Assembly: GCA_017417315.1 (NCBI GenBank) | Contig: JAFPZK010000007.1 | Span: 1 to 64,000, forward strand | Length of the DNA: 64,000 bases | Direction: 5' to 3' | DNA from: Bacteroidales bacterium | Lineage (GTDB): Bacteria; Bacteroidota; Bacteroidia; Bacteroidales; UBA3824 | Shown: piece by piece, positions 6,872 through 25,024 of the stretch | How positions within the stretch are numbered: position 1 is the first letter of the stretch | Layout: each line of letters opens with the position of its first letter | Translations under genes and position numbers: made by a program | Notes under the pieces: model-generated | The model's input: the letters and a program-made list of their open reading frames with translations, nothing else | Told to the model about the DNA's origin: nothing | The model's database searches: none

Positions 6872-7603
6872 TTATTTGTAAGCGGGACAAATGCCAGCTT
6901 TGTTACCACCGCCTCCTAAATTGAACGAAAGAATCACTCCTACGAATGAATACCAATCGTCATTAGAGCCGAATGATTTTTGTTTTGCGGCATCTTCAAA
7001 GTCCAATGAATACATATCGTCGCTTATTTGGTCGAGCATATCAGAAAACAATTTTCTGTATTTCCAGTCAAAAGCAATAGTAACTTTATTATTAGGTGAT
7101 ATTTTTACTCCTACTCCGAAAGGTATACATGCTCTTAATCCTTGTCCGGGAAAAGAAGCGACCGTAATTCCGAGACCACCCGAAACGTATGGGGTTACGA
7201 AATTTGTCGGCGAGCCTTTTTCGAGCGGGAAAAAGTTGTATTCACCGCAAAAAGCGAGTTCAATAACCTCGTTTTCGAAATGAGCGTTTCTTTTTCTTCT
7301 GTATTCATCGGTAAAATCTCTGTCTGCGCCTTCGAGTTTGCACCTTGAAACTTGAAAATTAGCAGCAACTCTTTCGTTAAAGCCGTGTCTTAAATTAAGA
7401 CCGATAGCCAATTTGGGTCTGTAAAACGGTTTTGACGGATTGATTTCTCCGTTATAGTATCCTACACCCAAAAACAGACCGGCTTCGTCAAAATGTTTGC
7501 TTTTACCTTTCTGTGCGCTGACGTTCAGTGCCACCGTTACGAGTGCAAAGATAGCACAAACTTTTATCACAACGGCTTTAAAAAATCTTAATTTTCTTTT
7601 CAT
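6872..7603 (-). CDS. DUF6089-like outer membrane beta-barrel protein
   Basis: A 243-residue protein with a signal peptide ending LNVSAQ. Alternating strands follow that fit a small outer membrane barrel: an early GLFLGVGYYNGEINPS, the YRPKLAIGLNLRHGFN strand, and a late FVGVILSFNLGGGG strand. Proteins of this type (DUF6089) commonly sit directly upstream of uppS and bamA in Bacteroidota, as here. Their function is not established; a structural role at the outer membrane is a guess from location. The C-terminal tail (NKAGICPAYK) after the last strand is short and not membrane-like. Confidence 0.75.
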   Translation of the reverse strand: MKRKLRFFKAVVIKVCAIFALVTVALNVSAQKGKSKHFDEAGLFLGVGYYNGEINPSKPFYRPKLAIGLNLRHGFNERVAANFQVSRCKLEGADRDFTDEYRRKRNAHFENEVIELAFCGEYNFFPLEKGSPTNFVTPYVSGGLGITVASFPGQGLRACIPFGVGVKISPNNKVTIAFDWKYRKLFSDMLDQISDDMYSLDFEDAAKQKSFGSNDDWYSFVGVILSFNLGGGGNKAGICPAYK

Positions 7604-7686
7604 TTTTATTATTGTGCGTTACGTTTATTTATTTCAAAAAGTTCGTTTTAAGTGAATAACGGCAAAAAAAAAAAAAAATTGTGTTT

Positions 7687-8418
7687 TTATACTTTATTTA
7701 TATCGGTTACGACGAGTCTTACGAAATCCACTTTTGCGGGGTTTGCAGCCTTCGGGGTTTCCAATCTGATTGGAAAACAACTTTTTTTCATAATCCATGA
7801 CGAAACAGAGTCCATCCACATAGAACTTGAAGCCCTGTTAGGGTGAGCAATGTCGCCTTCTATGCGTGTGTAGTGCAGTTTTTTTGATAAGAAGAACTGT
7901 TTTGGACCAAATTTTTTCATCATTACCTCGTTGATTCCCGTGTCTTCTTTCCAGTTAGGGGGACCAATCCATACGGTCGGTATTCCGTGCGTTTGAGGAA
8001 TAATTTTGTCGAAGTATTTTATTCTGTCTTTGGCGTTGTAAGCGAACATTTCGTTTGCGCCGATAACAAAGATGATGTATGTCGGCTTGTATAGGTTGAC
8101 GAAATATTCTAATGTGTCGCAAATTGCATACGTTTTGCTTGTTGCGCTTACCCAACTTACTACATGAAGTTCATGATTGTTGTAATCGCAGTAATTTTTT
8201 GTCCTGAACATCAGTGAATACGCCATAGAATCTCCTATCAGAAGTATATTCTGTTTTGAGGTGTCAGTTTGCGGTATTGTATCGCGGAAATTCGTGAAAT
8301 TACCTGATACAGAGGAGGCTTGAATTTGAATTTCCTTATAGTAAAAAGAATACCACGCAAAAGCAGCGGCGCATAAAGCAATTAAAAATGCGGATATTAT
8401 GAGTATTTTCTTTTTCAT
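7687..8418 (-). CDS. SGNH/GDSL-type hydrolase, membrane anchored or exported
   Basis: A 243-residue protein with one N-terminal hydrophobic helix (about 5-24), either an anchor or a signal peptide. SGNH blocks are present: block I as GDSM with the nucleophile candidate S64, block III as GANEM with N122, and block V as D189-I-A-H192. The family removes or transfers acyl/acetyl groups on glycans, lipids or peptidoglycan. The Asp-x-x-His spacing is right, so the enzyme is probably active; the substrate is unknown. It stands alone between a DUF6089-like gene and the ExbD operon on the same strand. A run of fifteen T follows its stop on the coding strand, with no clear stem. Confidence 0.75.
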   Translation of the reverse strand: MKKKILIISAFLIALCAAAFAWYSFYYKEIQIQASSVSGNFTNFRDTIPQTDTSKQNILLIGDSMAYSLMFRTKNYCDYNNHELHVVSWVSATSKTYAICDTLEYFVNLYKPTYIIFVIGANEMFAYNAKDRIKYFDKIIPQTHGIPTVWIGPPNWKEDTGINEVMMKKFGPKQFFLSKKLHYTRIEGDIAHPNRASSSMWMDSVSSWIMKKSCFPIRLETPKAANPAKVDFVRLVVTDINKV

Positions 8419-15110: not shown

Positions 15111-15140
15111 AAAAGCGCGGAATTTTCCGCGTTTTTTTTT
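15111..15140. terminator. Bidirectional terminator after sucC
   Basis: The CGCGGA stem (15116-15121 with 15126-15131) has a 4-base loop. Nine T follow on the plus strand and a short A-run precedes it, so it can end both sucC and the convergent TerB-like gene. Confidence 0.75.
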
Positions 15141-15687
15141 AATTTATTATCGAACTTACAAATCTGTGAATTATTCCGTTGTTTTTTTCGGAAACCATGG
15201 TGCTTTTTTCTAATTCTTCTTTTTCTTGTTGTGCTTTTTGTTCGTCCATATAAGACTGAACTTTACGGAAAATCTTTTGATATAGCGTGAAATTTATTCC
15301 CAATTTTCCCGAAACATATTTCATATAAAAATTCTCTGCCTGCATATAAACGCTGTCGGCAAAAGCCGTTAATAATAAGTCTGCCATAAGGGAAACTTTC
15401 ATTTTCATTCCCGTAATTTTGCCGACCCATTTGTTGAAATTTTCAATGTTAAAATCTTTTGTTTCGTTAATTACCGTCATCAAAACGACTTGAATATCCT
15501 CGCCTAACTCTTGGGTAATCTCTTCCAAAATCACTCTTTCTCTTTCGTCAATGCTGCCGTCAGACCACGCAAGAGAGGATACCATCGAAATATAAGCATA
15601 ACGTCTGTCAAAAGAAAAATCTTTTAACGAGAAATTATCTTCGCTTCTGTCGCCTAAAACGTCGGCTATGAGTTTGTTTTTGTCCAT
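15139..15687 (-). CDS. TerB-like domain protein
   Basis: A 182-residue protein, all helical in appearance, with no signal peptide. The stretch LAWSDGSIDERERVILEEI (about 38-56) matches the acidic metal-binding start of TerB-like domains. These were first described in tellurite resistance but are widespread and often of unknown role. A second helical half follows and a Gln/Glu-rich coiled segment is near 150-165. No ter genes are nearby, so tellurite resistance should not be assumed. A TAATTTAG box on the minus strand (15724-15731) could be its promoter. Confidence 0.6.
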   Translation of the reverse strand: MDKNKLIADVLGDRSEDNFSLKDFSFDRRYAYISMVSSLAWSDGSIDERERVILEEITQELGEDIQVVLMTVINETKDFNIENFNKWVGKITGMKMKVSLMADLLLTAFADSVYMQAENFYMKYVSGKLGINFTLYQKIFRKVQSYMDEQKAQQEKEELEKSTMVSEKNNGIIHRFVSSIIN

Positions 15688-15859: not shown

Positions 15860-17665
15860 ATGAAAAAGATATTTTTCCAAGTATTGACGCTTGTCTTTAC
15901 TTTTATAATATGTGAGGGCTGTTTGGACGGTTTGGGTTACAAAACCGTTCCCGATACGGGTTTTAACGCTTCATGGTTTTTCGTTAAAGCGGATTCCTTG
16001 AATGTCAGTCAAATAGAAAAATCCCTGCTGAAAGGTGTTTCGGTAGAAGGTATGCAGATTGTGCGTTTGCCGCATACCGCAAACTTAGAACCGCTTCGTG
16101 TCAAAAATCATTGGCAGGGAGTGTGCTTTTACATGAAGAAGTTTATTGTCAACAAAGCCTTGAAAGACAAGATGTTGTCTTTGTATTTTGAAGGTGCGGT
16201 AAATGTTTCCGGTCTTTGGATTAACGGAGAACAAAAATTATCAAATTCTAATCTGTTGCAGCCTTTTGAAGTGCCTTTCAAGCCTCTTGACGGAGAAAAT
16301 TGTGTTGTAGTAAAACTCGATAACAGAGGCTTTAACACTTACGGCGGCATTTGTCGTAACGTTAGGCTTTGCGCTAAGGATTCGCTTTCACAAAAAGCAG
16401 TTGTGATAAAAACCTCTGATTTAACTTCAAACTCCGGCACTTTGACCGTCAGCGTTAATGTTGAAAACGCATATAGCGAAGATAACATGGTGGAAATGCG
16501 TTGCAGAATTTATGACCATAACCGCAAAACAATCGGCAAAATGAAACTGATGAAACCCGTAAAAAGCGGTTCAATGGAGGAGTTTGTTTGTTCTGCCGGC
16601 TTTGAAGGCATAACGCTTTGGGATATTGACAATCCGTGGCTTTACATTTTGAAAACCGATGTTGTGTGCAACGGCGAAATTATTGATTCAAAAGAAACTG
16701 AGTTCGGTTTCAGAGATGTAGAAATTACTTCTTCCGGCATAAAACTTAACGGTAAAAAACGTTTTTTGCGCGGAGTTGACCGTAGTCAGGAATATCCTTA
16801 CGTCGGTTATGCGATTTCGGACGAAGCACATAAAAGAGACGCTTACAGAATTAAAAATGCGGGCTTTGATTTTGTTAAAACTTCTAAGTATCCTCAGGCA
16901 GAGGCGTTTTTGAAGGCTTGCGACAAGTACGGAATTTTGGTGCTTAATTTGGAAAATAATGCTTTATCTGACAGTTGTTTGACGATATTCGATTATAACG
17001 GGGACGACGGTTCGGATTTGTCGGGACTTATGACAATCAACAGAAGGGCAAAATTTCCGTATTATTTGTTCCGTTCGCAGCGGGATATTGACTACTCTGA
17101 ATTGAAAGCCTTTTCAGAGCCTATTTGTTATATCGCCTCTTATTGGATTCCTAACGAGAGCAAAGGCGTTACCGTGTATTCTAACGGTCAGGAAGTAGAA
17201 CTTTTTGTAGACGGAAATTCTCTCGGAAAACAAAAACCGTTGAAAAATTCTCAAACACAAAACCTTCCGCATCCGCCTTTTTATTTTGAGGTTGACTGCA
17301 AAAAACAAGGCACTCTGAAAGCCGTTTCGTATGATGCTTCGGGCAGTCCTGTTGCGGAATGTACCGTAAAATCGCCGCTTAATCCTGTCAGGCTGAAAAT
17401 AGTTTTGGACGAAAGCGGTACTTTGATTGCAGGCAATGACGTTATTTTGGTTCACTGTTACATATTGGACAAAAACGGTACTATTGTCAGCACTTCTTTC
17501 AGCGAAGTGGAATTTTCTGTCTCGGGTACGGCAGAGGTACTTTCTCCTAAAAAAATAAAAGCCGAGGCAGGTGTTGCAACGGCGTTAATCCGTATAGGTA
17601 AAAACAGCAACGATTTTACCGTTTCGGCAAAATGCGGTTCTATGTATACCGTCGCCGACAGATAA
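15860..17665 (+). CDS. GH2-like lipoprotein lacking the catalytic segment (pseudoenzyme)
   Basis: A 601-residue protein with a hydrophobic leader and a possible lipobox cysteine at C21. The order follows a glycoside hydrolase family 2 enzyme. A sugar-binding jelly roll comes first (WQGVCFYMKKF, then GLWINGE), then an immunoglobulin-like domain, then the start of the TIM barrel (KLNGKKRFLRGVDRSQEYP, FVKTSKYPQ, FLKACDKYGILVL). At about 360-375 the chain jumps to the barrel end (IFDYN, then AKFPYYLFRSQRD) and the usual C-terminal beta domains (VELFVDGNSLGKQKP). The stretch that normally holds the acid/base NE and the nucleophile Glu is absent. It is therefore probably inactive. The frame is intact, so it is not a recent frameshift. 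The next gene, a sensor phosphatase, starts 36 bases downstream. Confidence 0.75.
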   Translation: MKKIFFQVLTLVFTFIICEGCLDGLGYKTVPDTGFNASWFFVKADSLNVSQIEKSLLKGVSVEGMQIVRLPHTANLEPLRVKNHWQGVCFYMKKFIVNKALKDKMLSLYFEGAVNVSGLWINGEQKLSNSNLLQPFEVPFKPLDGENCVVVKLDNRGFNTYGGICRNVRLCAKDSLSQKAVVIKTSDLTSNSGTLTVSVNVENAYSEDNMVEMRCRIYDHNRKTIGKMKLMKPVKSGSMEEFVCSAGFEGITLWDIDNPWLYILKTDVVCNGEIIDSKETEFGFRDVEITSSGIKLNGKKRFLRGVDRSQEYPYVGYAISDEAHKRDAYRIKNAGFDFVKTSKYPQAEAFLKACDKYGILVLNLENNALSDSCLTIFDYNGDDGSDLSGLMTINRRAKFPYYLFRSQRDIDYSELKAFSEPICYIASYWIPNESKGVTVYSNGQEVELFVDGNSLGKQKPLKNSQTQNLPHPPFYFEVDCKKQGTLKAVSYDASGSPVAECTVKSPLNPVRLKIVLDESGTLIAGNDVILVHCYILDKNGTIVSTSFSEVEFSVSGTAEVLSPKKIKAEAGVATALIRIGKNSNDFTVSAKCGSMYTVADR

Positions 17666-17673
17666 TAAAAAAG

Positions 17674-17686
17674 TGTACGGTTTTTG
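17674..17686 (+). repeat. 13-bp motif shared by both large sensor phosphatase genes, copy 1
   Basis: TGTACGGTTTTTG occurs here, 15 bases before the first Reg_prop-SpoIIE start. An identical copy lies at 21001-21013 before the second. It could be a shared control element or a duplication remnant. Confidence 0.45.
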
Positions 17687-17701
17687 CATTGGAAAACAAA
17701 T

Positions 17702-20700
17702 ATGCGCTTTAAAATAAACATATTAGTTTTTTTGATGTTTTTCCCGATTTTGGTTTTTGGACAAAAGGGGTACCGTTTTTATAGTTTTACCGAAAAAGAC
17801 GGACTTTCTAACAATATAATAACCAATATCGTGGAAGACGGCAACGGCTTTATGTGGATAGGCAGTTATTCGGGGCTGATGAAGTATGACGGTTATGGTT
17901 TTACGCTCATTAATTCCGGCAGCGATTCGTTATCGTTGAAAGGCACTTTTATTTCTGACCTTGCAACCGACGGCGACGGAAATATTTGGGTCTCGAGCGA
18001 AAGCGGAATTTGTAAATATGACATTTCAAAAGAGCGGTTTTATTCTTATACTTTGAAAGCCGACGGCAAAGTTTGTCATAACTATCAGGCTGATAAGGTT
18101 TTTGTCTTGAAAGACGGCAGAGTGTTGTTTTTCGCAAAGCGTCTTTATGAACTTGACGAAAAAGAAAATTGTTTTCGTCCCGTTATGGATTCGTTGATTC
18201 TCTCTCATAAAATCATTAACTGTTTTGACTTAAAGTCAGGAGGTTTTCTTTTGGTTTCCTCAGAAGAAAAAACTATTTTTTATGTTGACAATTTAGGAAA
18301 TGTAATTACTGAAATTTCAGACGGTTGCACATGCGAAAGTAATCCTTACGAAAGACCGTATGCCGTTTTGGAGATTTCTGAAAATAAGTTTTATATAGGC
18401 GGGGTCAACGGACTTTATTTGATTGATGTTTCAACAAAGAAGGTTGAAAAAATTACCGAGATTTTCGGCGTTAAAATGCCGACGCAAATTGCTTCGCTTT
18501 TTATGGACAAAAGCGGCAATGTTTGGCTCGGCTCTAACGGTGAGGATTTGTATGTTTTGCCCAAGGGCGGTGAAAAGCCGTTTAGAATAGAGTCTGACGT
18601 TAATCATTCGTCAGTTGAAAAACTTAATAGTTTTACGACCCTTACGATGTATACCGACAGCAGGGGGTTAATGTGGTTCGGTACTTGGAACGGTTTGGCT
18701 TACACTAACTTAGAAAAAGAAAACGTTTTCAATAATTTTGCTTATCCTGAAAGTTCGGGAATATTGTCGTCAAATTTCGTAAGTAGTTTTGCCGAGCGCA
18801 AAGACGGACTTTTAGCAATCGGTACTGACGGCGGCGGTATCGTTTTTTGGGACAAAAAGAGTGCTTATCGTCAGGAGGCAAAATCGCCTGAAAAAAATAA
18901 CAAGATGCCGAATCATTCCGTTCTTGCCTTAGCCTTTGATTCTCAGGGTAATCTTTATGACGGCGGTTATAAACACCCTTTGCATAAGTTTTCCTCAGAC
19001 GGGGTATCTGACGAGGTTTTCAAATTCGACCCCTCGGATTCTTCGGCTTTGGAAAGCGATTTTATCCGCGCTCTTTATATGGAAAACGACACTACGCTTT
19101 GGGTGTTGACTAACGGGGCGGGTCTTTCGCTTTTTAATACTGTTACCAAAAAGTTCAAAGGGATAAAATGTGATAAAAACGGTGTTCAACCGTGTTCGCC
19201 TTACGGTATTTGCATGACTGAGGATAAGGACGGATTGATAATCGTTGGCACTTATAACGGACTTTTCACTTACGATAAAAAAGAAAACGTTATCAAAAAC
19301 TATGTCAACGACGGTTTGCCCGGAAGTTTGAGTCATAATTGGGTGTACTCGGTTTTCACAGATTCTAAACAGCGGCTTTGGGCGGGGACAATTTCAGGGC
19401 TTAATCTTTTGGACAAAACAACGGGAACTTTTAAGGTTTTTGCTCAAAATGAGGGTTTTATAAATTCGGTTTGCAGTTCTATTGCAGAAGATAAGGACGG
19501 TTTTCTTTGGATTGCGACGGCAAAAGGCATAGTGAAATTTTCGCCGGAAGAGGGCAGAGTCGTCAGAAATTTTGATAAAGACAACGGACTTTTTACTGAT
19601 AATTTTACGCAATGTGCTTGTCTTAAAGACAAAACAGGAACTATATTTTTGGGAACTAATGCCGGAATGATTAGTTTTAATCCTGACAAAATACGCGTTG
19701 ATAACTATGTTCCCGAACCTTTGATTACGGCGTTGTTGATAAATTATGCTCCCGTAAGACCGTGTACTGAAAACTCGCCGCTCAAAGAGTCCGTCATCAA
19801 GACAAAAGAAATTACGCTTACGAGTTCTCAGTCTACGTTTTCGTTACAATTTGCCGCCTTGGGCTATGCCGGAGCGTATTCTTATCTTTACGCTTATCGC
19901 ATCAAAGATTATGACAAAGACTGGAATTATATCGACAAACGCAGGGAAATAGATTTTACTCAACTCTCGCCCGGACGTTATGAAATAGATATTTTAGCAA
20001 TTAATCAGGACGGTGTTAGAAGTAATGTTAAAACATTGATTGTTAATATTTTACCGCCGTGGTACAAAACTTGGACGGCACTTTGTTTTTTCTTTTTGAT
20101 TATTGCCCTTAGTTTTTATTTATGGCATCATTGGCGTGTTAGAAAATTAAAGGAACAAAAAGAATATCTTGAAAACGAAGTTCAACTCCGCACTCAGGCG
20201 ATACGCGGCTCAATAACCTGCGCTCAGACTATTCAAACGGCGTTGCTTGCTAACGAAACCGATTTTTACAAGTATTTTGAAACCTCATGCGTTTACCGTC
20301 CGAAAGATATTGTTTCAGGTGATTTCTTTTGGCTCAAAAGTATTGTCAGTGGTGATACTGAAATGCTTTTTGTTTCGCTTGTAGATTGTACGGGACACGG
20401 TGTTCCGGGTGCGTTTATGTCTTTGATTGCTAACGTAGTGTTGTCAGAAATAGTGGAAATTAAACACATTTATTCTACTGAGGAAATTTTGTCGGAACTC
20501 TCGTACGGAATTTCGGTGATGTTGAAACAGGATTGTTCTGACAATAAAGACGGTATGGATATGACACTCTGCAAGTTAGAAAGGAAAAAAGACGGGGTTT
20601 TTAGTTTGTTACAATTTTCGAGTGCAAAAAATTATCTGTATTTTCGTCATAAAGACGACACCGAATATCAGGTTATAAAAGGCGACAGAAAGTCGGTGGC

Positions 20701-20986
20701 GGGCGGCGTAAGACACGGCGGAAGCATAGAAAGAAAAACGTTTTTACGACAAGAGTTTGAAGTCTTTGCCGGAGACGTGATTTATATGGCAAGCGACGGC
20801 ATTTCCGATATGTGTGATATTGCGCGGAAAAGATTTTCAAGGGAGCGTTTTAAGCAACTTCTTAACGATATTTACCCCTTGGAGATGGATTGTCAGGCGG
20901 CAGAACTCGAAAAAACAATTTCCGCTTATACCTTCGGAACGGAGCAACGGGACGATATTTCGGTTTTGGGCTTGAAAATTAAGTGA
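17702..20986 (+). CDS. Reg_prop/Y_Y_Y sensor with SpoIIE phosphatase output (1094 aa)
   Basis: This is a membrane-spanning sensor. It has a signal peptide (ending LVFGQ) and a periplasmic double beta-propeller of Reg_prop repeats (about 30-650), recognised by recurring GLSNNIITNI, DGFLWIAT and DSRGLMWFGT-type strings. A Y_Y_Y domain (about 690-775) and one membrane helix (about 789-808) follow. After a short coiled linker comes a PP2C-like SpoIIE domain with its metal-binding motifs intact: GDFFW (873), DCTGHGVPGAFMS (895), DGMDMTLC, SDGISD and RDDISVLG. In the usual architecture the output is a histidine kinase; here it is a serine phosphatase. It likely senses an envelope or carbohydrate cue and dephosphorylates a cytosolic partner. 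I take the ATG at 17702; a TTG further up is less likely. Confidence 0.88.
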   Translation: MRFKINILVFLMFFPILVFGQKGYRFYSFTEKDGLSNNIITNIVEDGNGFMWIGSYSGLMKYDGYGFTLINSGSDSLSLKGTFISDLATDGDGNIWVSSESGICKYDISKERFYSYTLKADGKVCHNYQADKVFVLKDGRVLFFAKRLYELDEKENCFRPVMDSLILSHKIINCFDLKSGGFLLVSSEEKTIFYVDNLGNVITEISDGCTCESNPYERPYAVLEISENKFYIGGVNGLYLIDVSTKKVEKITEIFGVKMPTQIASLFMDKSGNVWLGSNGEDLYVLPKGGEKPFRIESDVNHSSVEKLNSFTTLTMYTDSRGLMWFGTWNGLAYTNLEKENVFNNFAYPESSGILSSNFVSSFAERKDGLLAIGTDGGGIVFWDKKSAYRQEAKSPEKNNKMPNHSVLALAFDSQGNLYDGGYKHPLHKFSSDGVSDEVFKFDPSDSSALESDFIRALYMENDTTLWVLTNGAGLSLFNTVTKKFKGIKCDKNGVQPCSPYGICMTEDKDGLIIVGTYNGLFTYDKKENVIKNYVNDGLPGSLSHNWVYSVFTDSKQRLWAGTISGLNLLDKTTGTFKVFAQNEGFINSVCSSIAEDKDGFLWIATAKGIVKFSPEEGRVVRNFDKDNGLFTDNFTQCACLKDKTGTIFLGTNAGMISFNPDKIRVDNYVPEPLITALLINYAPVRPCTENSPLKESVIKTKEITLTSSQSTFSLQFAALGYAGAYSYLYAYRIKDYDKDWNYIDKRREIDFTQLSPGRYEIDILAINQDGVRSNVKTLIVNILPPWYKTWTALCFFFLIIALSFYLWHHWRVRKLKEQKEYLENEVQLRTQAIRGSITCAQTIQTALLANETDFYKYFETSCVYRPKDIVSGDFFWLKSIVSGDTEMLFVSLVDCTGHGVPGAFMSLIANVVLSEIVEIKHIYSTEEILSELSYGISVMLKQDCSDNKDGMDMTLCKLERKKDGVFSLLQFSSAKNYLYFRHKDDTEYQVIKGDRKSVAGGVRHGGSIERKTFLRQEFEVFAGDVIYMASDGISDMCDIARKRFSRERFKQLLNDIYPLEMDCQAAELEKTISAYTFGTEQRDDISVLGLKIK

Positions 20987-21043: not shown

Positions 21044-24000
21044 ATGAAATCGGTTTTTCTTTATATATCGTTATTGACGGTTGTTTTTTGTGCTCAGGGT
21101 GTTTCTGCGCAAGAAAAACAGCCTTTGTTTCATACCGTTGACGAGCAGGACGGACTTGTCAACGACCTTATAAATTGTATTGAAGTTGACGATTACGGTT
21201 ACGTTTGGGCGGGCTGTAAATCAGGACTTTGCAGGTATGACGGTCAGACATTTCAGATTTTTTCCGCTTCGGGAATTTCCCAAAACAATTCCGTTGCCGG
21301 AAACTCTTTTGCTGACCTCGAAAAAGACATAAACGGCAGAATTTGGATTGCCTCGGAGCGCGGTGTAACGTTTTATAATCCTACGACAAGTCGTTTTACT
21401 TTTGTGCCTATGATAAGACCTGATGACGGCAAAATTCATTATAGTTATCAGGCTGACAAAATATTAATCAATTCGGAAGGTGAGGTTTATTTGTATTCCA
21501 CATATTTACAACTTTTGCAATTCAACGAAGCCGATACGCTTTTTTATCCCGTTTTTACGGAGGCGGTAAAGGGAAAAAATTGCCGTTATTGTTATATTGA
21601 TAAAAGCGATAATTTTTGGCTGCTTTCGGAGGTTGATAAAAAGATTTACAAAATGTCGTCTTTTGGTGATATTTTGCGTGTGGTAGATTGTTCTCAGATG
21701 GAATATCCGCCTACGAAAGGCAGTTTTACATTTCTTGACAACGGTAACGGCGAGGTCTTTTTCGGCGGCGACAACGGTCTTAATGTTTTTAATCAGAATA
21801 CCGGCAAATTCGGCAAACTTGATGCCGTAAATCTTGAAATTTTTTCTCAGAACGAGGCAAAATGCTTTTTTAAGGATAGTCGTGGGCTTATTTGGATTGG
21901 TACTAATGCAAAAGAACTTTACATTTATAATCCTCAGACAAAATATTTGACGAAAATTCCTTCTGCCTCAAACCGTACACCTTATCGTCTTACTTCTCCT
22001 TCGGTTATTGACATCAGGGAAGACCGTCAAGGGCTGTTGTGGTTCGGCACGTGGAAAGGCTTGTCGTATACGGAGATAAATCCGACGAAGAAATTTCATA
22101 ACGTTTCTAACGAGGAATCTGAAATCCTGCCCGGAAAAAATTACGTTGACGCTTTTGATTATTATAACGGTACGATTGCTATCGGTTGTGACGGCGGCGG
22201 CGTAACGTTTTGGAAAAAAGGCTCTCCCGAAAGAACAGTTTGTTTTGACCCCGAAATCGAAAAAAATACGATTATGGATCGTCCCTCGGTTTTGGCACTT
22301 TGTTTCGATAAAGACGGCTACCTTTATAACGGTGGTTATAACAGAGCCGTAACGAGAATTTATCCTAATTTGAAGGACGAGGACGAATATCCGTTGAAAG
22401 ACGAAAAATCTGATTATATGTCTTCGGATTTTACTGCCGATATGATTTGCGACTATAAAGACAGAATTTGGATTATGACTAACGGCGGCGGACTTTACGA
22501 AGTAACTGATAAGAAAAAAGGTACGGTAAAGCGTCATAATGTTGACAAAAACGGCACTCCGATATGTTGTATTTGGGGTACTTGTTTGGCTAATTATAAG
22601 GACAAAATTCTTGTCGGCTCTTATCAGGGTATTTCGGTTTATGATATAGAAAATGACGTTTTTAAGAATTATGATTGCGACGTTGAAGATTCTACGACGA
22701 TAAGTCATAGTTGGGTTTCAGATATTTTGATTGATTCGAAGGATAGAATTTGGGTAGGCACGAGTTACGGTCTTAATCTTTTTGATATTAATACGGGTAA
22801 ATTTCGTCGTGTCGGTCGCGAGAGCGGCTTTTTGAGCGATGACATCAAAGGTATTTTGGAAGATAAAAAAACGGGATTGCTTTGGATTTCAACGGCAAAA
22901 GGTATCGCGAAATTCGATACCGAAACTTTTAAAGTTATCCGCACGTATCTTTCGTCTGACGGACTTTTGAGTGAAAATTTTTCTCTGCGTGGTGCGTATT
23001 GTGATCCCGAAGGTACGATGTTTTTCGGAGTTGCTAACGGCTTCGTATATTTTAATCCTGAGGAAATCAGCGATAACATACAACTTCCTATGCCCATGAT
23101 AACGGGCTTGATGATTAATTATAACCGCGTTACGCCGACGGACAAAAATTCTCCCTTTAAAAAAGCACCTGAGGCCACCGAGGGCATTGAACTGAGTGCA
23201 GACCAAAGTACTTTTACGATAGAGTTTACCTCGCTTAATTTTGTTAACGAGGCAGGAAACCGTTATTTCTATTATTTGGACGGTTATGATAAAGATTGGA
23301 TTGACATCGGATCCCGTCATGAAATCACGTTTACTAACCTTGATGCCGGATTTTATGTTTTTCAGGTAAAGTGTCAGAATGCTGACGGCATTGTTTCTGA
23401 CATCAGACCGCTAAAAATTCTCATTCACCCGCATTTTTATAAAACGTGGTGGTTTTATACGCTTGAAGTTCTTTTTGTTGCGTTTGTGGGTTTCTTAATT
23501 TATTGGTATAAGGCAAGACGTTTCAGAGAGAATCAGAAAGAACTCGAAATTATGGTGAAATCCCGAACGGAAGAACTCGTTAAGGCTAACGGAGAACTTA
23601 CGGCTCAAAAGGAAGAAATTTTGCGTCAGTCTCAGGAAATAGAACTTCACAGGGATGAACTTATCAGCAAAAACGAAGAACTTGAACTTTCAAGACGGGA
23701 GATTTCGGAGCGTAACGAAGAAATCGAAAAGTCGCTCAAAAATATTATGGTCTTGAATAACATGAGTCGTCAAATAACCTCTTCGTTTGACATAACTAAC
23801 ATTGTCATAATGGCTTATAACCACTTGATACAGATTTTGAGAGTAGACTTTTTTACTACGGGAATTTTTAGTGCGGGAATTAATTCTTTGGAATTTAAAT
23901 TCGGATTTATGTCCGGAAAGGTTTTGACCGAAACCGCTATTCCGTGTCGGGAGGTTTCATACGCGGAAATCGAATGTTATAATTCTAATTCGGACGTATT

Positions 24001-25024
24001 TTTGTGCGGTGAGGACTGTGAGGCATCTTATTTTAAAAACAAAGACGGCAAACTTTTCGGTTCGATGTGTCTTTTGCCTTTGGTGGAAGGCAGTAAGGCT
24101 AACGGTGTTTTAGTTGTGGCATCAGAAAAGCAAAATTATTTTTCTGACCATGACATTGCAAATATCAGAATGATAAGTTCGTACGTGAGCATTGCCATTG
24201 ACAAGGCTCGCGACTACGGTCAACTCCGAGCCAAAAATAACGCCATTAACGGTTCTATCCGTTATGCGAAAACCATTCAGGAGGCGATTTTGGTCGGCGA
24301 GGAGACTATTAACAGATATTTTTCGGGAATGGTGATTTTCCGTCCGAAAGACATTGTCAGCGGTGATTTTTATTGGTTCAAAACCATTGACAAAGAAAAC
24401 GGCGGGCTTTATAAGATTTTTGCCGCAGACGTTGATTGTACGGGACACGGTGTACCGGGAGCGTTTATGTCGTTGATTAGTAATACGTTGTTGACGGATA
24501 TAATAATTCGCGGTGGGATTTGGGAGCCTAATAAAATTCTTGAACATTTGGATAAGGAAATAAAACTTGCTTTAAATCAGGAAAACACCGAAAACAATGA
24601 CGGTCTTGATATGGCGATTTGTCGTTTTGATGTTGACGAAAACGGTGAAATTACGACAGTTGCATATTCAGGTGCTAAAAATCCGCTTTATTATTACGAT
24701 AATGAAAAGGGCGAACTTTTCACGATAGCCGCTGACAGGATTTCGATAGGCGGTTTCAACAGCGAAAAAGAGAAATGTTTTTCTTGTCATACTTTCAAAG
24801 TTAAAAAAGGGGATATGTTTTTTATGTCCTCTGACGGTATTATTGACCAAAACAACAAGGAAAGAAAGCGTTTCGGGTCAAGACGTTTTACGGGGGTTAT
24901 CACCGAAAATTGTCATAAAGGTATGAGAGAAATAAAGTTGGCACTTGAAACCGCTCTTGACGATTTTATGGGCGGCGTTGAGCAAAGAGACGATATTTCG
25001 GTTATGGGATTGGCAATAGTGTAA
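21044..25024 (+). CDS. Reg_prop/Y_Y_Y sensor with GAF and SpoIIE domains (1326 aa)
   Basis: A larger paralogue of the preceding gene. A signal peptide ends GVSAQ; Reg_prop repeats fill about 25-690, and a Y_Y_Y domain lies at about 715-790. One membrane helix (about 803-825) leads into a long coiled coil (about 830-905, heptads rich in E, K and L). A GAF-like domain follows (about 905-1050), then SpoIIE with GDFYW (1106), DCTGHGVPGAFMS, DGLDMAIC, SSDGIIDQ and RDDISVMG. The cytosolic GAF domain suggests a second, intracellular input that the first paralogue lacks. Its start lies 57 bases after the previous stop, with the shared 13-bp motif and a -7-like box in the gap. Partners (anti-sigma or STAS proteins) are not in the window. 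Confidence 0.88.
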   Translation: MKSVFLYISLLTVVFCAQGVSAQEKQPLFHTVDEQDGLVNDLINCIEVDDYGYVWAGCKSGLCRYDGQTFQIFSASGISQNNSVAGNSFADLEKDINGRIWIASERGVTFYNPTTSRFTFVPMIRPDDGKIHYSYQADKILINSEGEVYLYSTYLQLLQFNEADTLFYPVFTEAVKGKNCRYCYIDKSDNFWLLSEVDKKIYKMSSFGDILRVVDCSQMEYPPTKGSFTFLDNGNGEVFFGGDNGLNVFNQNTGKFGKLDAVNLEIFSQNEAKCFFKDSRGLIWIGTNAKELYIYNPQTKYLTKIPSASNRTPYRLTSPSVIDIREDRQGLLWFGTWKGLSYTEINPTKKFHNVSNEESEILPGKNYVDAFDYYNGTIAIGCDGGGVTFWKKGSPERTVCFDPEIEKNTIMDRPSVLALCFDKDGYLYNGGYNRAVTRIYPNLKDEDEYPLKDEKSDYMSSDFTADMICDYKDRIWIMTNGGGLYEVTDKKKGTVKRHNVDKNGTPICCIWGTCLANYKDKILVGSYQGISVYDIENDVFKNYDCDVEDSTTISHSWVSDILIDSKDRIWVGTSYGLNLFDINTGKFRRVGRESGFLSDDIKGILEDKKTGLLWISTAKGIAKFDTETFKVIRTYLSSDGLLSENFSLRGAYCDPEGTMFFGVANGFVYFNPEEISDNIQLPMPMITGLMINYNRVTPTDKNSPFKKAPEATEGIELSADQSTFTIEFTSLNFVNEAGNRYFYYLDGYDKDWIDIGSRHEITFTNLDAGFYVFQVKCQNADGIVSDIRPLKILIHPHFYKTWWFYTLEVLFVAFVGFLIYWYKARRFRENQKELEIMVKSRTEELVKANGELTAQKEEILRQSQEIELHRDELISKNEELELSRREISERNEEIEKSLKNIMVLNNMSRQITSSFDITNIVIMAYNHLIQILRVDFFTTGIFSAGINSLEFKFGFMSGKVLTETAIPCREVSYAEIECYNSNSDVFLCGEDCEASYFKNKDGKLFGSMCLLPLVEGSKANGVLVVASEKQNYFSDHDIANIRMISSYVSIAIDKARDYGQLRAKNNAINGSIRYAKTIQEAILVGEETINRYFSGMVIFRPKDIVSGDFYWFKTIDKENGGLYKIFAADVDCTGHGVPGAFMSLISNTLLTDIIIRGGIWEPNKILEHLDKEIKLALNQENTENNDGLDMAICRFDVDENGEITTVAYSGAKNPLYYYDNEKGELFTIAADRISIGGFNSEKEKCFSCHTFKVKKGDMFFMSSDGIIDQNNKERKRFGSRRFTGVITENCHKGMREIKLALETALDDFMGGVEQRDDISVMGLAIV

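Follow-up and report, generated by a model that had tools for sequence, protein, structure and literature searches.

All five architecture types of the GH2 glycosidases have a central TIM barrel in common (PMC5145203). The order of N-terminal sandwich, immunoglobulin-like (Ig-like) domain, barrel start, DUF4982 and C5 domain that characterises GH2 enzymes of the GalA/GalB type (PDB 5euv, 5t98 and 5t9a) is shared by a lipoprotein encoded in the 64,000-nucleotide stretch of Bacteroidales DNA analysed here (the window), but this protein differs in lacking the middle of the barrel, the acid/base and nucleophile residues and the pocket histidines. Pseudoglycosidases, according to a review no longer catalytic but still glycan-binding (PMC7828330), offer a second comparison. 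Like YKL-39, the window protein derives from a glycosidase and has lost the catalytic residues while keeping the remainder; unlike pseudoglycosidases as so described, it lacks the pocket and about half of the barrel, and its binding of glycans is putative. The surface glycan-binding lipoproteins of Bacteroidetes are, as here, secreted lipoproteins with Ig-like or sandwich domains. Those of the SusE/F type belong to SusC/SusD polysaccharide loci, however, whereas the window gene lies among housekeeping genes and two sensor genes. No description of a GH2 protein without its core was found in the literature searched, which lay largely outside subscription journals.

The gene (Table 1) belongs to a draft genome made up of 85 contigs. 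Its frame is open over all 601 codons, and domains are matched on both sides of the gap, as the original prediction had it. The predicted lipidation cysteine, C21, follows a hydrophobic signal and is invariant in 9/9 aligned orthologs of the genus, although the lipobox, CEGC, is atypical. Both N-terminal GH2 domains are recognisable, the Ig-like domain at 44.5 bits (PF00703, cut-off 23) and the sandwich domain at 24.8 bits, under the Pfam cut-off of 28 (PF02837). The barrel profile PF02836 matches only at its positions 1–81 of 302, so that the TIM barrel falls short of the complete one of an active GH2 glycosidase, and DUF4982 and GH2_C5 follow directly. The best profile matches are to the NCBIfam GalA/GalB families, with scores well below the equivalog cut-offs; an intact ortholog matches PDB entries with E values down to 1e-72. 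Structure prediction, which drew on an alignment of two relatives only, gave a mean pLDDT of 41.9 for the 601-residue protein and 36.9 for an intact control, values too low to be informative; viral contigs yielded no further homologs for it. The other GH2 frames examined in this genome keep the NE motif, the 636-residue L007 included, the exception being L146, whose frame is cut.

Table 1. Positions in the window of the GH2-derived gene, its parts and its neighbours.
Feature	Position	Strand	Basis
Divergent TerB-like gene, outside the enzyme	15139..15687	-	Synteny in genus
Probable GH2-derived pseudoenzyme lipoprotein, 601 aa, TIM barrel without catalytic core	15860..17665	+	Frame, Pfam, ortholog alignment
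Signal peptide with lipidation cysteine C21	15860..15922	+	Sequence, ortholog alignment
Remnant of the GH2 N-terminal domain (sugar-binding type), residues 86-153	16115..16318	+	PF02837
GH2 Ig-like domain, residues 183-285	16406..16714	+	Pfam (PF00703)
TIM barrel start, kept, residues 287-368	16718..16963	+	Pfam PF02836
Junction (approximate; codon 362 or close to it gives the best split)	16943..16948	+	Alignment with G007
Barrel end, kept (IFDYN ... AKFPYYLFRSQRDID), residues 376-412	16985..17095	+	Translation, ortholog alignment
DUF4982, residues 435-499	17162..17356	+	Pfam
GH2_C5 (C-terminal domain 5), residues 512-593	17393..17638	+	Pfam
First Reg_prop-Y_Y_Y-SpoIIE sensor	17684..20986	+	Pfam; synteny
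Second Reg_prop-Y_Y_Y-SpoIIE sensor	21044-25024		Synteny

The extent of the loss is seen by comparison with the closest intact ortholog, a 780-residue protein from the same genus (G007, whose contig is that of L009, a Bacteroidales MAG from sheep rumen) that is 71% identical to the window protein over shared columns. The barrel of the window protein breaks off after about β3 and picks up again near its end, with a net loss of 462 nucleotides, or 154 codons, corresponding approximately to residues 386–539 of G007; this supplies the count of missing residues that the original prediction had called for. Both catalytic residues of G007, the acid/base E429 (in SINET) and the nucleophile E487 (in VSEYGDWEYY), fall in alignment gaps of the window protein, which bears out the earlier view that the chain follows GH2 order and then jumps past them. 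Both are present in all of the approximately 23 intact orthologs aligned, and the catalytic residues are absent from the window protein and five dead orthologs of its genus. Two shorter deletions, of about 13 residues after LDNR and about 10 after DSLS, are also found; the original prediction had missed these.

Conservation outside the gap differs between parts of the protein. Of the positions that are near-invariant in 23 intact orthologs, the window protein keeps 12/12 in DUF4982 and C5, 28/32 in β1–β3 and 19/29 in the N-terminal domain. Its losses include the N158–D170 loop, N330, H332, R363, H366 and W551, and the barrel start that is kept carries the pocket substitutions N330D, H332S, R363K and H366K (G007 numbering). 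The two pocket histidines are presumably equivalent to the active-site residues H357 and H391 of E. coli LacZ. The N158–D170 loop, N330 and H366 are altered in all three dead forms found in the genus (601, 656 and 660 residues), each of which keeps all 12 near-invariant C-terminal residues. Judged from these residues, the old pocket is dismantled and the C-terminal half conserved, which speaks against a binding role through the former active site.

The genus sample comprised 18 genomes, with the GH2 gene in nine species besides that of the window. Three of these (G007, G003 and G008) have intact genes and six have barrel-less ones. In G005 and G009 the product has 656 residues and lacks both glutamates but keeps a VESGEK...WVMFDYN stretch; in G014, G001, G006 and G017, the last split over two contigs, it has about 660 residues, the barrel being reduced in size and both catalytic glutamates absent. 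Across 393 genomes of the order, full-length orthologs of 777–805 residues and 40–55% identity occur in about 20 genera outside that of the window, and in every one aligned the acid/base motif N-E and the nucleophile motif (S/A/G)-E-Y-G are present; several intact relatives have the gene in loci that include sulfatases, TonB receptors or hybrid histidine kinases of the Reg_prop kind. With the 601-residue protein as query, the order sample yielded no barrel-less form beyond the genus itself (a frame of 594 residues is cut by a contig end), and a plasmid search gave only distant GH2 proteins of <60% identity. Since intact orthologs are carried by three species of the genus and by some 20 other Bacteroidales genera, the intact enzyme is the ancestral state.

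An ortholog tree from which the deleted columns had been left out places the window copy next to the intact genes of G007 and G003, as their sister (support 99/96). A single loss common to all barrel-less orthologs was rejected by the AU test (p-AU 0.00024). The window form being nested beside intact relatives, the core must have been lost at least twice among orthologs within the genus. One loss may be common to the 656- and 660-residue forms (support 69/86).

A comparable loss is seen in a second GH2 paralog of G014 (L138/L050, G014:C104:373-2085), a 570-residue protein whose catalytic core is gone and whose orthologs in G001, G006, G017, G008, G016, G005 and G009 are intact, with 822–863 residues. 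The gap opens where the third barrel strand ends (LIVLD) and extends to the last barrel helix, with borders nearly those of the deletion in the window gene. TSHNPP has been replaced by FTRIRP, and 59/62 of the C-terminal invariant residues are kept. G014 also has two copies of an ExbB-ExbD-TerB locus on separate contigs, L125 (G014:C214) and L045 (G014:C59); for a draft that is 64% complete, this doubling means that a mixed bin is possible.

Are the barrel-less genes maintained? Both members of each barrel-less pair share the same layout, so that the differences between them postdate the loss. Maximum-likelihood ω is 0.169 for G005–G009, 0.132 for G001–G006, 0.062 for G014–G006 and 0.077 for G014–G001, departing from ω = 1 with 2ΔlnL of 96 to 496, and the kept β1–β3 segment, with ω of 0.018 and 0.057, is among the most tightly constrained parts. 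These dead lineages are thus under strong purifying selection. On the window branch, which also spans time before the deletion, ω is 0.308, compared with 0.083 on the intact branches in a fit where the G008 branch is saturated (pairwise dS to G008, likewise saturated, was left out). This value differs both from 0.083 (2ΔlnL 24.7) and from 1 (2ΔlnL 10.3). By part, the N-terminal domains have ω of 0.57, indistinguishable from neutral, and the C-terminal half 0.165. Relaxed yet not absent constraint on the window copy is a fair reading. Selection after the loss of catalysis, as in a maintained pseudoglycosidase, is thus evident for the barrel-less relatives and weaker on the window branch. The original prediction of a stable domain deletion as opposed to decay therefore stands for the family, where deletions are in frame and ω is 0.06–0.17, but not fully for the window copy.

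With constraint relaxed in this way, decay of that copy is conceivable. The enzyme may have become dispensable in the window species, suffered an in-frame deletion and begun to drift towards loss, an end point represented by G016, which has no such gene. The elevated ω and near-neutral N-terminal domains are consistent with this, as is an excess of window-specific changes in the kept parts of the barrel (11:1 and 16:1). A gene simply decaying is nevertheless hard to reconcile with an overall ω below 1, with a frame open throughout, with a C-terminal half that has changed no faster than that of an intact relative (10:10) and with the strong constraint on the other barrel-less lineages. We regard decay as rather improbable.

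The original prediction proposed that the protein may act as a sugar-binding presenter for the Reg_prop-SpoIIE sensor encoded downstream. The spacing on which this was based is correct: on the same strand, 36 bases separate the GH2 stop from the ATG of the next frame, and 18 from an upstream TTG. In addition, some polysaccharide loci outside the genus have a Reg_prop hybrid sensor close to the gene for the intact enzyme. The linkage itself is not conserved, however. The first sensor lies beside the GH2 gene in the window genome only, and the second directly follows it only in G007 and G003, both of which have intact enzymes. The other seven of the nine GH2-bearing species (G008, G005, G009, G014, G001, G006 and G017) have no adjoining sensor, and these include all six with the barrel-less form, for which the original prediction had asked whether the deletion is shared beside a SpoIIE sensor; relatives in which the gene is unlinked had been named in advance as evidence against the proposal. 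G016, close to the window species by SucC, holds the TerB-like gene and both sensors (55% and 76% identical) without a GH2 gene between them. Synteny in the nine GH2-bearing relatives and G016 thus makes the sensor linkage incidental on present evidence. Presentation of a sugar through the old pocket is made still less likely by the loss of the remaining pocket residues, and we consider a presenter role very unlikely.

The wider neighbourhood includes ExbB, ExbD, a FabD-type acyltransferase, SucC, OmpA-PD40 and proteins without a Pfam match. The TerB-like gene adjoins the GH2 gene in eight other species, intact and barrel-less alike (the contig of G003 ends at the GH2 gene), and is also present in G016, where the GH2 gene is absent. 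The tandem sensors of the window share approximately 34% identity. G007 lacks the first of them, and the second carries an added GAF region. In G016 (L124, G016:C115:8001-17905), an 823-base gap at 7066-7888 occupies the expected place of the GH2 gene, with both sensors kept; it contains a 105-residue helix-turn-helix protein and repeated GTGGGTTCACACCC-type sequence, and no GH2 remnant was found between the TerB-like gene and the sensors.

That two halves of an intact gene were fused by an assembly or binning error is hardly credible, even for a draft genome, since six other species have barrel-less orthologs, and since assembly error would not produce the matching substitutions in the pocket and deletions in loops that are seen in the window copy.

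We conclude, with a probability of about 0.72, that the window gene encodes a pseudoglycosidase formed by excision of the core and kept for some non-catalytic role, and that such excision recurs in the genus. A GH2 glycosidase lipoprotein, β-galactosidase-like by its nearest profiles, has lost approximately β4 to β7 together with both catalytic glutamates, and with these gone the protein should not hydrolyse glycosides. The β-sandwich and Ig-like domains that are left (N-terminal, DUF4982 and C5) would then serve a non-catalytic function at the cell envelope, most likely the binding of a glycan or protein partner by the C-terminal half, which is kept best, and probably independently of the SpoIIE sensor. 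Given the relaxed window branch and the absence of the gene from G016, the window copy may itself be on the way out. It is possible, but we would not favour it, that repeated excision of about β4–β7 with retention of the barrel ends and C-terminal sandwich defines a class of 'coreless GH2' proteins that have a new role in common, in binding or in structure.

Finally, a single rumen genus shows two or more in-frame losses of the core in one gene and a further loss in a second GH2 paralog. Known pseudoglycosidases are described as inactive relatives that still bind glycans; here the core has been cut out, and in most of these lineages what remains is still under selection. The proteins of 780, 660, 656 and 601 residues form a natural series in which to ask what a glycosidase does without its glycosidase part, and how a barrel tolerates the loss of half its strands. 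Counts of GH2 enzymes that rely on matches to the N-terminal or C-terminal domains overestimate enzyme content.
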